A stretch of 64,000 nt of DNA from Photorhabdus asymbiotica (GTDB lineage: Bacteria > Pseudomonadota > Gammaproteobacteria > Enterobacterales > Enterobacteriaceae): contig NZ_RBLJ01000001.1 in assembly GCF_003634575.1 (NCBI RefSeq), positions 496,001-560,000 of the forward strand, read 5' to 3'. This document shows positions 1,777-64,000 of the stretch, piece after piece; the first letter of the stretch is position 1, and each line of letters opens with the position of its first letter. The position numbers and the translations under genes were made by a program. The notes beneath the pieces are model-generated. The model had not been told where the DNA came from. It did not search any database and was given only the letters and a program-made list of their open reading frames with translations.

Positions 1777-4164
1777 TCAGTCCCTCAAGGATGCTTGGAA
1801 TCGCTGTTTCAGTACTGCAACACATTTATTAACGGTCGCAGCAATCTCTTCTTCTTCCAGTGTACGCGCGGTATCCTGCAAGATAAAACTTATAGCGAGG
1901 CTCTTATGACCCTCGGCTACACCTTTACCACAATACACGTCAAACAAGTTTATGCCAACTATATGATTTACGCCAACTTTCTTACATTCAACCAAAACAT
2001 CTTCTGCCGCAACATTTTCAGGTACAACGATTGCGATATCACGACGGTTTGACGGGAAGCGCGAAACTTCTTTCGCATCAGGAATCACGCAGTCTGCCAG
2101 CTTATTCCAGAGTACTTCGAACACCACAGTACGGCCATTTAAATCAAGTTTGCGCTCCAGCTCTGGGTGAACAACCCCAATGTATCCGATATATTCATTT
2201 TCCAAATAAATACCAGCACTTTGACCTGGGTGTAATGCTGGATTTACATCTGCTCTAAAAGAGATCTTAGATAATTTTCCAGTCAATTCCAGTACAGCTT
2301 CCAAATCGCCTTTCATATCGAAGAAATCAACAGACTGTTTTTCTAGTGACCAGTGCTCTTCAAAACGATTACCGGTGATAACTCCCCCTAACACCAGTTC
2401 CTGGCGAATATCCTGTTCCGCATTTTCATCAGGAACAAAACGCAAACCAGTTTCAAACAAGCGCACACGGTTTTGCTGACGGTTCTGGTTATATACCACT
2501 GTTGTTAGCAAACCAGTCAACAAAGATAAACGCATGGCTGACATATCCGCTGAAATTGGGTTAGGTAACATCAACGCTTGTTGCTGTGGATGTAACAGTG
2601 CCTGAATTTTAGGATCAACAAAGCTGTAAGTAATCGCTTCCTGATAACCTCTATCAACCAGCATTGTTTTAACACGTTTCAAGGAAAGATCCGCTTCACG
2701 ATGTTTTTTCATGACAAGATCTGCACGCATCGGTACATCAGGAATATTGTTATAACCGTAGATACGGGCAACTTCTTCAACCAGATCTTCTTCAATTTCC
2801 ATATCAAAGCGCCAACTCGGGACAACCGCCTGCCAGCAATTTTCTTGCACAGTGACCTTACAACCTAAACGGGTTAAGATGTCACCAACTTGTTCGTCAG
2901 GCACGTGATGGCCAATTAAACGATCCAGCTTTTCACGACGCAGAGTGATTGTCGCTGGTTTTGGCAATTGAGATTCATCAGTAACATCAATGATCGGACC
3001 GGCTTCACCACCACAAATATCAATCAGTAATTGAGTCGCCCTCTCAATTGCTTTGTGCTGCAATTGAGGATCAACACCACGTTCATAACGATGAGAAGCG
3101 TCAGTATGTAAGCCATAACGACGAGCGCGGCCAGCAATCGCCAAAGGTGAAAAAAATGCGCACTCAAGTAAAATATTTTGGGTTTTTTCATTCACACCAG
3201 AATGTTCACCGCCAAAAATACCTGCCATTGCAACAGCTTGTTTTTCATCAGAAATAACTAGAGTATCAGCAGAAAGGTTGGTTTCTGTACCATCCAGCAG
3301 CACCAATTTTTCATCCTGTTTCGCCATGCGTACAGTGATTGAACCATTTAGACGCTCCAAATCAAACGCATGCAATGGTTGACCCAATTCAAGTAACACA
3401 TAGTTAGTCACATCGACTATCGGATCGATGGAACGGATTCCCCCACGACGCAATTTTTCACGCATCCATAGTGGCGTTGCCGCTTTCACATTAATTTTCT
3501 CAATTACCCTACCCAAGTAACGTGGGCATGCTTCTGTCACTTCAACACGAATAGGGAAGACAGTATCTGTTGTCGGTTTTACTGCCTCAATTTGCTGTTC
3601 AGATAATGGAATTTTATTAGCGACTGCTACATCACGTGCAACACCAATAATACTCAGGCAATCAGCTCGGTCAGGTGTAATACTAATTTCAATTACGCTG
3701 TCATCTAACTTCAGATATTCACGCAGATCAATACCTAAAGGTGCATCATTTGGTAATTCAATAATACCGTCATGATCCTCTGAAATACCTAGTTCTGAGA
3801 AAGAACACAGCATCCCTTCAGAAGGCTCACCGCGCAGTTTAGCCGCTTTGATTTTGAAATCACCCGGCAGCACAGCTCCCACAGTTGCTACAGCAACTTT
3901 CAATCCCTGACGACAATTTGGAGCACCGCAAACGATATCCAGCAGGCGTTCACCACCTACATTCACTTTTGTTACCCGCAACTTATCCGCATTCGGATGC
4001 TGGGCACATTCGACAACTTCACCAATAACCACGCCATGGAATTGACCAGCTACTGCTTCCATGCCATCAACTTCCAGACCAAGCATGGTCATTTGGTCAG
4101 ATAATTCTTCACTACTGATGGCTGGGTTTACCCACTCGCGTAACCAGAGTTCACTGAATTTCAT
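1777..4164 (-). CDS. pheT: Phenylalanyl-tRNA synthetase beta subunit
   Basis: Large subunit of the alpha2-beta2 class II enzyme that charges tRNA-Phe. The 795-residue length equals that of E. coli. An N-terminal EMAP-type tRNA-binding domain (about residues 40-150, with [19 protein letters not shown]), the B3/B4 editing region, the B5 domain and a C-terminal anticodon-binding fold ([12 protein letters not shown] near 708) can be followed in order. It starts 14 bases after pheS. The pheM leader attenuator upstream of pheS should control it together with pheS. Confidence 0.97.
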
Positions 4165-60612: not shown

Positions 60613-61243
60613 AAACGTTAATACCCTAAGCTGCCTTAATCGACTCGACCAGGGCGATTTTTCCTTGTATTTCATTAATAAACTAATTTTTTACTTACTG
60701 ATATTATTAATAATTTTTAAACAATTAACTGGTCAGTGTTGTACTATTATCATTATCATCTATCATCAACAAATCGTATTTTTTCATCATCATCTGTTTT
60801 CCCATGGAATGCTGCATATGGGTATCCGTCGAATCAAGCGATATGCCATTATAGCTACTTTTCCTGAAAGCAACAGTTGCTGAGAACAAACAACTCCCCT
60901 CTTTCCGGATCGCCAATATCGAGTTTTATATATTCATATAGCATCAATAATTTCAAAATTATCCGGCAACTATTATGACTAAATAAAGCATTAATAGACC
61001 CCTTATTTTCGGCAACACAAAAATGTAATATAAAATTCAGCCAGTTCTAACACTTGTATTATTTCGTTATCACTTTTTTATGCCGGCTAAAATTAAATTC
61101 GCAGTTAACGAGAAAAACTGTTGATAAAGTTGATGATAACTAAATTTACGATTACCATAGACAATTACAATCATTTCTGACTATATTTATCATTGTTTAT
61201 GAAATATTTAAGTTAAAGACCGACCATTGGTATAAACTCAATA
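60613..61243. other. Accessory AT-rich spacer
   Basis: 631 bases between yeaL and the radical SAM cassette. A 63-codon minus frame at 60725-60916 (with STDTHMQHSMGKQMMMKKYD) has no recognisable family. ATCATTATCATC-type runs near 60745 resemble Fur half-sites by composition only. Nothing else is supported. Confidence 0.4.
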
Positions 61244-61325
61244 TATACCCAATAGATTTCGAGTTGCAGCGCGGCGGTAAGTGAACGCAGCCAACAAAGC
61301 AGCAACTTGAAAGATGAAGGGTATA
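61244..61325. repeat. ERIC element e (82 bp, internally deleted)
   Basis: TATACCCAATAGATTTCGAG, then GGTAAGTGAACGCAGCCAAC with the 45-base centre missing, ending AAGATGAAGGGTATA. It lies just upstream of the radical SAM control region. Confidence 0.95.
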
Positions 61326-61345: not shown

Positions 61346-61497
61346 CATCAAAATATTCCCCGCCCTGTTTTGTGAGCTGCTTCTAAATAAGCATACCTTT
61401 AACAAGTCATACTTAGCCTAAACACTCAAAATACGCATTTAATTAACCAATACATTGCAAAATGAATTCATACTGATAATAGTGAATATCGCCTGAC
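61346..61497 (+). repeat. Upstream region of the radical SAM gene, copy 1 of a duplicated control region
   Basis: Aligns with 63849-64000. Shared exact blocks in the same order: TGTGAGC (61371), TCTAAATAAGCA, TTAGCCTAAACAC (61413), TTGCAAAATG (61455), and GCCTGAC versus GCCTAAC near the end. The last two named long blocks are 42 bases apart in both copies. It ends 24 bases before the radical SAM start, so it is probably the promoter/leader. Confidence 0.85.
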
Positions 61498-61521
61498 TAT
61501 TAATCTAACCGGGGGTAAATT

Positions 61522-62583
61522 ATGTCATGCTTTCCTACCGGATATTGGGAAAAATATCCGAATACAGCCACTGTGATCACAACATACACTTGCAATGCCG
61601 CTTGCAAAGAGTGTTGTTTTGAATGTAATCCTTCTGTGAAAGCACGCCTCAGCCTGGATGAAATTAAACAATTTATTGTACATTCAAAAGCTAACTTTCC
61701 AGGGTTGAAGTTAGTCGTTTTCAGCGGAGGAGAATGTTTCCTACTAGGCAAAGACCTCATAGAAGCCATCCGTTTTGCTTCAGAACATGGCTTATTGACC
61801 CGTTGTGTGACTAATGGTTATTGGGGGAAAAATCGGGAAAAGGCGCAAAAAATCGCCCAAGATTTAACAGATGCCGGTATCACAGAGATAAATATCAGTA
61901 CCGGGAAAGATCACAGTGAATGGGTACCAATCGACAGCGTGGTTGCAGCAGCAGAAGCGTTGGCCGAGCAAAACATTACGACACTGATTACCATAGAACA
62001 GGACACCGCAGATTCCTCCATTGCAACACAAATTACCCAAAACCCAATCATTAAACGTCTCAAAGAACAAAACAAGATCAGCTTACAACGAAACACCTGG
62101 ATGCCATTCTATGATACCAGCGAAGAACGGAAAAACGTGCCAAACCGGGCTGAACAACTGACAAAAGGGTGTGATCAGGTCTTTGAAAATATCGTTCTGA
62201 CACCACATGGTGAAATTTCCGCCTGCTGTGGTCTGACATTAGAGCATATCCCGGAAATGAAACTGGGTCGGTTACAGGGAGGTGATTTAGCCCAACTTTT
62301 CAAAGGGCAAGAAGAAGACTTTATGAAAGTCTGGTTACGGACAGAGGGGCCGTACACGATTCTAAAAAAATATCGCCCGCAAGATAGCGACATTAATCTG
62401 GAAAAAATCGTTCATCCCTGCCAAGCCTGTGCCTATTTGCATAAGGACGAAGGAACACGCCAGAATTTATTAGATAATTATCATGGGGAAATTATTCCAA
62501 TAATCAAAAAATTTAATGCCAAAGAAAGATTGGATCTTCTGATATATCAATCAGCAGCAGAAAATACAGTTGACTCAATATAA
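61522..62583 (+). CDS. Radical SAM enzyme with SPASM-like auxiliary cysteines, probable protein/peptide maturase
   Basis: 353 residues. The radical SAM CX3CX2C motif is Cys24, Cys28, Cys31 in TTYTCNAACKECC, with extra Cys32 and Cys35. The SAM-binding GGE motif is in FSGGECFLLG near 68-77. A C-terminal region has Cys217 (KGCDQV), Cys235-Cys236 (GEISACCG) and Cys300/Cys303 (PCQACAY), a layout like SPASM or twitch domains that hold auxiliary Fe-S clusters in peptide-modifying enzymes. There is no N-terminal RRE domain. GGGGGTAAATT precedes the ATG. The Tat-exported protein starts 10 bases after the stop, so that is the likely substrate. The reaction is unknown. Confidence 0.8.
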   Translation: MSCFPTGYWEKYPNTATVITTYTCNAACKECCFECNPSVKARLSLDEIKQFIVHSKANFPGLKLVVFSGGECFLLGKDLIEAIRFASEHGLLTRCVTNGYWGKNREKAQKIAQDLTDAGITEINISTGKDHSEWVPIDSVVAAAEALAEQNITTLITIEQDTADSSIATQITQNPIIKRLKEQNKISLQRNTWMPFYDTSEERKNVPNRAEQLTKGCDQVFENIVLTPHGEISACCGLTLEHIPEMKLGRLQGGDLAQLFKGQEEDFMKVWLRTEGPYTILKKYRPQDSDINLEKIVHPCQACAYLHKDEGTRQNLLDNYHGEIIPIIKKFNAKERLDLLIYQSAAENTVDSI

Positions 62584-62593
62584 GGGGTAAATA

Positions 62594-63589
62594 ATGAAAC
62601 GACGTACATTTATTGGTGTAGCCGCCGGAGCTGCCATTGGCAGTGTCATACCCACCGTTAACGCAAAAGCTAACAGCAATCGTCTCTTTGGCGTACCACG
62701 TTCATTACTCTCTCCAGGAGAAGTTGAAGAAAATAAGCTCAGGCTGTCAATGTCACATGCCAAACTCCCGGTTGAAATTTGGGAAGATATCATCGCCTAT
62801 AACCGATTTTGGGAAACCATAAAACAACAACCTGAATTAGTATTAGAATATAGAGAGTCACCAGAAAAAGTTCTGAATGAATTTGGCATAGACAAAAATA
62901 TTGTTAGCCCCGGTTCCTCAGAGGAATTATTGCTATTTATCACTTATGATAAGGAGTTAATGGATGCGGTAAAAACCAACAACTATGAGAAACTATTTTC
63001 CCGACTAAAGACTTACGGCCTAAATAAAAGGAAATCAAACCTGAGAAGCCGGATCAATTACTACCTTAGCCAGGATGCCAATCTGGTTGCACATTTTAAA
63101 GATTACATCCCATTAGAGCAGCCAGAAAGTTCCCCGCTTATCAGGTTGAAAGAAATCCTGGAACCTGTGAACAACAAAGATGATACCCGCCTTACAGCGG
63201 GGGCAAATATGGTTGCCGCTATTAATATGGCCGTCGTCGTTACCGTGCAAACATCTACCACAGTAAATGTCTCAACGACAACTAGCGTATCCGCATTTGT
63301 CTTAGTAACTATCCTGACAAAAATAGCTGGAAAACATAGGGTAAATTATCGCCCTCAAATTAATCATGAAGACATTTCTGTCAGTGCTGCCTCTCTTCAC
63401 CTTGCCAGGATCTATCACAATCGAGCAATGGTAGATACGCTGGTCAGAGAAACAATTCGGCGAGAAGTCATCGCTTGCCTGTTTGCCGCACAGAAATGTG
63501 GTTATATTAACCTTCCAGTGACTCGGACAGAACGCAAAGAAGTGATTCATCTTTTTACCGAATTGTCTTTAGAGATGATGATAACATAG
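62594..63589 (+). CDS. Tat-exported protein paired with the radical SAM enzyme, probable substrate
   Basis: 331 residues, no family recognised. MKRRTFIGVAAGAAIGSVIP is a twin-arginine signal (RRTFIG then Ala/Gly-rich), cleaved probably after VNA (24). Residues 67-100 form a helix with ETIKQQPELVLEYRESPEKV and LNEFGID, resembling leader segments of nitrile-hydratase-like/Nif11-type precursor peptides. Residues 201-240 are almost only Ala, Val, Thr, Ser, Asn and Ile (AINMAVVVTVQTSTTVNVST), like a RiPP core or a buried strand region. A helical C-terminal domain (about 255-331) has the only cysteines, Cys295 and Cys302. Ribosome binding site GGGGTAAATA is nearly the same as for the radical SAM gene. 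Function unknown. Confidence 0.75.
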   Translation: MKRRTFIGVAAGAAIGSVIPTVNAKANSNRLFGVPRSLLSPGEVEENKLRLSMSHAKLPVEIWEDIIAYNRFWETIKQQPELVLEYRESPEKVLNEFGIDKNIVSPGSSEELLLFITYDKELMDAVKTNNYEKLFSRLKTYGLNKRKSNLRSRINYYLSQDANLVAHFKDYIPLEQPESSPLIRLKEILEPVNNKDDTRLTAGANMVAAINMAVVVTVQTSTTVNVSTTTSVSAFVLVTILTKIAGKHRVNYRPQINHEDISVSAASLHLARIYHNRAMVDTLVRETIRREVIACLFAAQKCGYINLPVTRTERKEVIHLFTELSLEMMIT

Positions 63590-63676: not shown

Positions 63677-63803
63677 TATACCCTTCATCCTTCAAGCTGC
63701 TGCTTTGTTGGCTGCTTTCACGCACTCCAGTCACATAGTTATCTATGCTCCTGGGGATTCGTTCACTTGCCGCCGCGCTGCAACTTGAAATCTATTGGGT
63801 ATA
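63677..63803. repeat. ERIC element f (127 bp, full length, inverted)
   Basis: Reverse orientation relative to elements b and e: TATACCCTTCATCCTTCAAG at the left and CTTGAAATCTATTGGGTATA at the right, with the CTCCTGGGGATTCG core. It lies just before the second copy of the duplicated upstream region. Confidence 0.96.
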
Positions 63804-63848
63804 TCGAATGAGGTGGTAATCAAGGAAAGGAAATATTTTGTCATCCTT

Positions 63849-64000
63849 TAGGAATATTTCCACCACCTATTCTGTGAGCAGACTCTAAATAAGCACATTT
63901 TGTAACTCAATATATTTAGCCTAAACACCAAAAATATAAATTTAATCAACTAACCTATTGCAAAATGGAACCATCCGGCTAATAGTTAGTAGCGCCTAAC
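63849..64000 (+). repeat. Copy 2 of the radical SAM upstream region, cut by the window edge
   Basis: Homologous to 61346-61497: TGTGAGC at 63873, TCTAAATAAGCA, TTAGCCTAAACAC at 63916, TTGCAAAATG at 63958 and GCCTAAC at the edge. By the copy 1 spacing, a gene should start near 64025. Confidence 0.85.

Follow-up and report, generated by a model that had tools for sequence, protein, structure and literature searches.

This analysis concerns a two-gene cassette near the end of a 64,000-nucleotide stretch of the Photorhabdus asymbiotica genome (G000:C1:496001-560000, hereafter the window); the locus itself extends past the window end. The first gene, at 61522..62583 on the plus strand, encodes a 353-residue radical S-adenosylmethionine (SAM) enzyme, a putative peptide epimerase of the EpeE/YydG-like type according to family TIGR04078, the solved structure PDB 8ai1 and its cysteine columns. 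The second, P1, at 62594..63589 on the same strand, encodes a 331-residue partner with a twin-arginine translocation (Tat) signal, delimited by its open reading frame (ORF) and by alignments and considered here as a giant precursor. Ten bases separate the two ORFs, and GGGGTAAAT precedes both start codons, the ribosome-binding sequences being near-identical. The positions, 10-base gap and matching ribosome binding sites given in the initial annotation of this DNA were all borne out by the ORF list and the sequence. The system is real and conserved, and most likely joins an EpeE-type epimerase to a very long Tat-signalled precursor in a pathway for a ribosomally synthesised and post-translationally modified peptide (RiPP).

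The best NCBIfam family for the window enzyme is TIGR04078 (YydG/EpeE peptide epimerase), with an E-value of 4.8e-26 and 91.9 bits, and the top solved structure is YydG (PDB 8ai1, 5.6e-15). TIGR04078 was also the best family for all ten other radical SAM enzymes scanned, with scores of 56.2-115.2 bits in nine relatives and 434.6 bits in the tenth, a true YydG. The cysteines listed in the initial annotation (24, 28, 31, 217, 235, 236, 300 and 303) are all present, along with further ones at 3, 32, 35, 72 and 95. The columns of C217, the adjacent pair C235-C236 and C300xxC303 are shared by the twelve aligned sequences, which include the true YydG (L029), and the CxxxCxxC motif is aligned in eleven of them, the annotated Collinsella start missing the motif. 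In a passage of PMC8326336, Cys223 of EpeE is proposed as the hydrogen-atom donor, and its counterpart in the window enzyme is one of C235/C236. No PoyD family is found among the matches listed for the enzyme (25 of 32), and no phage record matched it at E ≤ 1e-5. Given that TIGR04078 ranks first with a score below its cut-off, and that the YydG cysteine set is kept, the enzyme is classed by sequence as EpeE-like yet outside the YydG equivalog.

Four parts can be distinguished in the partner, all on the plus strand. A twin-arginine signal (residues 1-24, MKRRTFIG...VNA; 62594..62665) is followed by a leader of about 175 residues, defined by conservation (residues 25-200; 62666..63193), by a putative core rich in Val, Ala, Thr, Asn and Ser, with borders set by eye (residues 201-250; 63194..63343), and by a conserved follower of about 80 residues, defined by alignments (residues 251-331; 63344..63586). 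The cysteines of P1 are restricted to positions 295 and 302, both in the follower, so the core has none. The claim of a twin-arginine signal in the initial annotation is upheld at the level of sequence: the KRRTF motif is present, residues K2, R3, R4, T5 and F6 are invariant in all 15 aligned Photorhabdus partners, and TatC is encoded in the window genome. The arginine pair is also invariant in the four sequences of precursor alignment A6, for three of which the start codon was chosen by us.

A second precursor gene, P2, encoding 337 residues, lies just beyond the window (G000:C1:560243-561247). Comparing four P1 with twelve P2 full-length sequences, with borders set by eye and after exclusion of duplicated stretches and of the incomplete copies in loci L007, L012 and L013, yielded a mean identity of 94% for the Tat signal, 80% for residues 25-200, 39% for residues 201-250 and 74% for residues 251-328, with 11 gap positions in residues 201-250. 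The variable block of P1 is also the 45-residue segment richest in Val, Ala, Ile, Thr, Asn and Ser among the 51 non-overlapping window ORFs of at least 120 residues (a fraction of 0.82, the next being 0.73 and the median 0.56). In the leader, TIGR04351, a TOMM/nitrile-hydratase type leader family, matches residues 79-100 of P1 below its cut-off (E = 0.0053), and the same family is matched by all 15 Photorhabdus partners at E ≤ 0.05, the best value being 8.8e-5. TIGR04032 (SdpC) matches nine of the 15 partners at E ≤ 0.05, with a best value of 3.3e-5, the window partner not being among them; composition may account for this match.

The partner is best read, on these sequence features, as a giant RiPP precursor with a Tat signal, a leader, a variable core and a follower. 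This reading fits best given the variable core between conserved flanks, the EpeE-like enzyme, the genus-wide co-occurrence and the RiPP-type neighbours of the relatives described below. Of the two suggestions made in the initial annotation, that of a RiPP-like product made from a very long precursor, which matures before Tat export, is thus retained, while that of an exported protein modified in the manner of a sulfatase is considered less likely. The absence of a sulfatase signature, also remarked upon in that annotation, was confirmed by the lack of any sulfatase family match to the partner at E ≤ 1, on which ground the analogy with the anaerobic sulfatase-maturating enzyme (anSME) was rejected. 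Thioether chemistry, as in sactipeptides or ranthipeptides with a donor cysteine, was likewise rejected for P1, whose core has no cysteine.

A partner that is a stable exported protein, repaired or modified by the enzyme and with the low-complexity segment as a structural or membrane stretch, is very improbable. Its length of 331 residues and the conservation of leader and follower, like that of a folded domain, would suit such a protein, whereas the core is the sole strongly diverged stretch between the paralogues and the relatives adjoin a RiPP C-methyltransferase, SdpI-type proteins or transporters. It is also unlikely, to a lesser degree, that this is a RiPP system in which the enzyme, instead of epimerising core residues, oxidises them or joins them by, for instance, C-C or C-O crosslinks. 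The modest TIGR04078 score and the weak matches of the window enzyme to other radical SAM families leave room for such a reaction. However, the YydG-type C217, adjacent cysteine pair and CxxC are retained throughout the alignment, the cysteine-free P1 core is contrary to thioethers there, and the V/A-rich cores resemble the epimerised EreA, for which part of PMC9259500 describes D-Val and D-Ala at alternating sites. Since L-to-D epimerisation leaves the mass unchanged, as a passage of the same paper (PMC9259500) states, the mass-shift test proposed in the initial annotation is unsuitable and could miss the reaction.

The beginning of the radical SAM gene recurs, in degenerate form, between P1 and P2. 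This second occurrence belongs to a 183-nt direct repeat whose copies are 75% identical (L003 1410-1592 / 3913-4095): the first, at 61409..61591 on the plus strand, covers the upstream region and the enzyme start, and the second, at 63912..64000 on the plus strand and continuing toward P2, runs into the relic of a second enzyme start. This is most simply explained by duplication of an enzyme-precursor unit followed by loss of the second enzyme, so that a single enzyme now accompanies two precursors. Separately, the cassette lies between two copies of a repeated element in inverted orientation (window 61243-61325 / 63677-63804), whose arms of 50 and 45 nt are 92-93% complementary; related matches occur at window 36383 and 38894, and a 20-nt pattern from the element has four occurrences in the window with at most one mismatch, against 0.00 expected.

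Directly 3' of P2 is a gene for a 164-residue small protein with two predicted membrane helices, and next downstream is a nonribosomal peptide synthetase (NRPS) of 1455 residues with two condensation stretches, an adenylation and a carrier domain (L003:5763-10130 onward). This single-module NRPS is accompanied by a MacA-like adaptor, an ABC ATPase, a MacB-like permease and a separate 75-residue carrier protein. In the twelve Photorhabdus loci fetched (L007-L018), the small protein always directly follows the last precursor, and the radical SAM enzyme is found in eleven, L011 beginning too close to a contig end. Remnants of P1 remain in L012 and L013, and the second copy in L007 is missing most of its middle. 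An NRPS match comes after the small protein in eleven of these twelve loci, as it does in the window genome.

Such an arrangement could suggest a hybrid pathway, in which the NRPS adds a cap or lipid to the peptide and the MacAB-like transporter belongs to the same system. MacB-type pumps act on periplasmic substrates, and one would suit a Tat-exported precursor. However, the P. australis locus (L007) keeps the enzyme, precursor and small protein, followed only by a permease fragment and with no NRPS match in the locus, the P. thracensis locus (L018) has MacA and the permease as fragments only, and no NRPS was found in the stretches read around the relatives outside Photorhabdus. A hybrid pathway is accordingly considered rather unlikely. 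Given the lack of an NRPS in P. australis and the fragmentary transporter in P. thracensis, the minimal unit is the radical SAM enzyme, the precursor and the small protein.

The initial annotation had asked whether the partner always accompanies this enzyme. The pair was found in all twelve Photorhabdus genomes searched, P. asymbiotica included, in three genomes of f14, the family of genome G090, and in Eleftheria terrae (plasmid NZ_CP106953), where, as in the f14 genomes, the order is radical SAM enzyme, Tat precursor and small membrane protein. In a sample of the phylum, the precursor profile matched 3 of 398 genomes, the window genome included, one of them weakly (E 0.005) and with a stop, and the enzyme profile likewise matched three of the 398, again including the window genome. 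The third enzyme genome, G149, is not matched by the precursor profile; there the enzyme's neighbour is a precursor-like ORF of another kind. The enzyme was present in 2 of 369 genomes of the class sample and in 3 of 198 of family f14, and the sole match of the partner to plasmid records is that in Eleftheria.

The precursors of this branch measure 331-368 residues with the starts used, and the Photorhabdus profile aligns with that of the f14 and Eleftheria precursors over 319 columns with 99.2% probability (E 6.7e-20). The Photorhabdus small proteins have only short motifs in common with those of f14 and Eleftheria (18-23% identity); bPH_5 is above cut-off in the small protein of all three f14 genomes. 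A stretch RL(F/Y)G.P.S is conserved just past the Tat signal in Photorhabdus, f14 and Eleftheria, and the start of a Lactococcus lactis precursor-like protein (L026:4466-4978), MKNTRLFGT, resembles it. The stretch is possibly a leader recognition motif.

A wider family of the enzyme is found on plasmids, with matches in 14 records. The seven records H3-H9 (E. mundtii, Thermus, L. lactis, Streptomyces, Collinsella, Halocatena and Klebsiella) all carry a precursor-like ORF of 168-301 residues adjoining the enzyme, with a hydrophobic or Asn-rich segment as judged by eye, and records H14 and H15 are annotated YydF/YydG loci. On the haloarchaeal plasmid of Halocatena salina (L031:3437-5038), the same type of enzyme lies beside a 177-residue protein ending in a V/A-rich stretch. 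TIGR03975, a RiPP C-methyltransferase family, is matched near the enzyme in G149 (511.7 bits) and Rhizobium (282.1 bits, with a cut-off of 281.85). In Klebsiella, Thermus and Collinsella the enzyme is accompanied by a methyltransferase and by a protein of SdpI or DUF1648 type. Those methyltransferases from Klebsiella and Thermus match PDB 7rc2 (2.9e-14 and 5e-15), listed as 'Methyltransferase family protein', which we take to be AerE, the aeronamide Asn N-methyltransferase; NCBIfam puts both nearest to general protein methyltransferases. A class A beta-lactamase-like serine hydrolase also occurs near the enzyme in Eleftheria (L019:9139-10449) and Thermus (L025:6248-7270), for which a role in processing or protecting D-peptides would be a guess.

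Asn spacing was compared with 20,000 shuffles in 11 core segments. Pairs at spacing 6 were strongly enriched over the shuffles in three of them only, numbering 7 in Klebsiella (p printed as 0.0), 10 in Collinsella (p 0.0001) and 13 in Thermus (p printed as 0.0), these p-values being descriptive given that both the core borders and the segments were chosen by eye. No Asn is found in the Eleftheria, G090 and Streptomyces cores, one in those of E. mundtii and L. lactis, and two, at spacing 7, in that of Halocatena. Between precursor sets, that of f14 and Eleftheria aligns weakly in the leader with a mixed set of five more distant precursors (probability 75%).

In comparison with known systems, the epipeptide locus EpeXEPAB/YydFGHIJ of Bacillus subtilis contains the nearest characterised enzyme, EpeE/YydG, with the same cysteine set. 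The epipeptide gene, however, is short (156 bases in L029) and precedes the enzyme, whereas the Photorhabdus-type precursor of 331-368 residues is Tat-signalled, lies 3' of the enzyme and includes a follower. In the window locus, genes resembling EpeP or EpeAB do not come directly downstream. With proteusins such as polytheonamide and aeronamide the present system has in common a long leader, whose NHLP-type similarity is weak and below cut-off, and a core rich in Val, Ala and Asn; in the relatives, a six-residue Asn spacing and a methyltransferase that matches PDB 7rc2 are further points of likeness. Proteusins differ in that the window precursor has an internal rather than C-terminal core, a follower of about 80 residues and a Tat signal, and in that the enzyme is EpeE-like, with no PoyD family among the matches listed for it. 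An excerpt of PMC11285071 describes Asn 16, 22 and 28 of polytheonamide as forming a hydrogen-bonded chain. By analogy, the alternating V/A stretches, and in relatives the six-spaced Asn, resemble polytheonamide-type helices; for the window cores themselves, composition carries more of this analogy than any clear repeat does.

The D/L channels of gramicidin A type offer another likeness: Val, Ala, Ile and Leu abound, with alternating stretches, in the cores of f14 and Eleftheria, and aromatic residues lie near one end of the f14 cores, a resemblance judged by eye. The origin here would be ribosomal rather than nonribosomal, and both D-residues and channel activity are predicted properties of these cores. 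The SDP toxin/SdpI system of Bacillus is a further comparison, given the SdpI or DUF1648 proteins beside the Thermus, Klebsiella and Collinsella relatives; the SDP pathway is not known to involve a radical SAM enzyme.

Several observations weigh against an epimerase acting on a giant precursor. The window enzyme does not reach the TIGR04078 cut-off of 300 bits with its 91.9, so its reaction could differ. The NHLP-leader similarity is weak, with two TIGR04351 scores of 16.3 and 21.6 bits for a cut-off of 65, and the AlphaFold models of the precursor and the small protein (mean predicted local distance difference test, pLDDT, of 41.9 and 49.0) are uninformative. P1 has a single Asn pair at spacing 6 (p = 0.11) and P2 two (p = 0.013), and the Thermus core is enriched at every even spacing tested, 2, 4, 8 and 12 too, not at six alone. 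In composition, two segments lie close to the window median of 0.56, with 0.53 for G149 and 0.58 for L. lactis, and those of f14, Streptomyces and E. mundtii score 0.62-0.69, values that ordinary window ORFs also reach. Nor did the Photorhabdus precursors yield a significant profile alignment with the mixed set of five distant precursors (probability 2.2%). Among the relatives, genome G845 of f14 has an enzyme ORF on a short contig without the N-terminal CxxxCxxC part, Rhizobium has no precursor in the stretch read and a transposase-like ORF upstream of the enzyme, and three weak matches (<24% identity; Allochromatium twice, Tropicibacter) have no precursor-like neighbour. Finally, bPH_5 is below cut-off in the Eleftheria small protein, and no Pfam family was recognised in the Photorhabdus one.

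With these points considered, we still hold it probable that the locus encodes a RiPP-type pathway in which the EpeE-like enzyme epimerises the core of a long Tat-exported precursor, leading to a membrane-active peptide. The gene order, co-occurrence, pattern of conservation, enzyme family and signal motif are observed directly, and the steps from there to a product are proposed. By homology, the enzyme would abstract C-alpha hydrogens in the Val/Ala/Thr-rich core in the cytoplasm, and C235 or C236 would donate hydrogen to give D-residues, with the leader and follower serving as putative recognition or shielding domains. The epimerised precursor would then be exported by Tat, as its signal suggests, and a periplasmic peptidase would free a hydrophobic D/L peptide; no peptidase for core release was identified within the cassette. 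The peptide may insert into membranes, and the small protein after the last precursor, bPH_5-like in relatives, may provide self-protection. Passages of PMC8326336 describe epipeptides as permeabilising membranes. Most likely, the pathway yields a peptide that acts on membranes and is directed against competitors.

A broader proposal is put forward tentatively: these loci may represent membrane-channel peptides of a ribosomal class, D/L-alternating and similar to gramicidin or polytheonamide, which EpeE-type epimerases would make in place of the PoyD-type ones of proteusins, with cores ranging from NX5N to purely aliphatic, in which the Photorhabdus/f14/Eleftheria branch would export the whole epimerised precursor via Tat and bPH_5-type small proteins would give immunity.

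The literature searched yielded nothing joining the terms twin-arginine, radical SAM, RiPP and precursor peptide, although it covered few subscription papers and a prior description is possible; SdpI, radical SAM and RiPP were joined there only in work on B. subtilis cannibalism. According to part of PMC9177418, the most widespread Photorhabdus-specific RiPP family (93%) is an unknown bacteriocin cluster, plu0082-0077, which is transcribed yet partly or completely untranslated (PMC9177418). It may possibly be the same as the window locus.

In the literature covered here, the formation of beta-helical channel peptides through iterative radical epimerisation is described for PoyD-type enzymes and proteusins. 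What we infer from sequence here is the coupling of a long Val/Ala-rich or polytheonamide-like core to an epimerase of EpeE rather than PoyD type, with Tat export in this branch. Should the EpeE-type enzymes here indeed modify long cores of Val/Ala or Asn-repeat type, a different enzyme would have arrived at the same product logic, and Tat would be shown to export an epimerised RiPP precursor. The twelve Photorhabdus genomes, together with plasmid-borne relatives of the enzyme from Thermus to an archaeon, provide a concrete and testable gene set.
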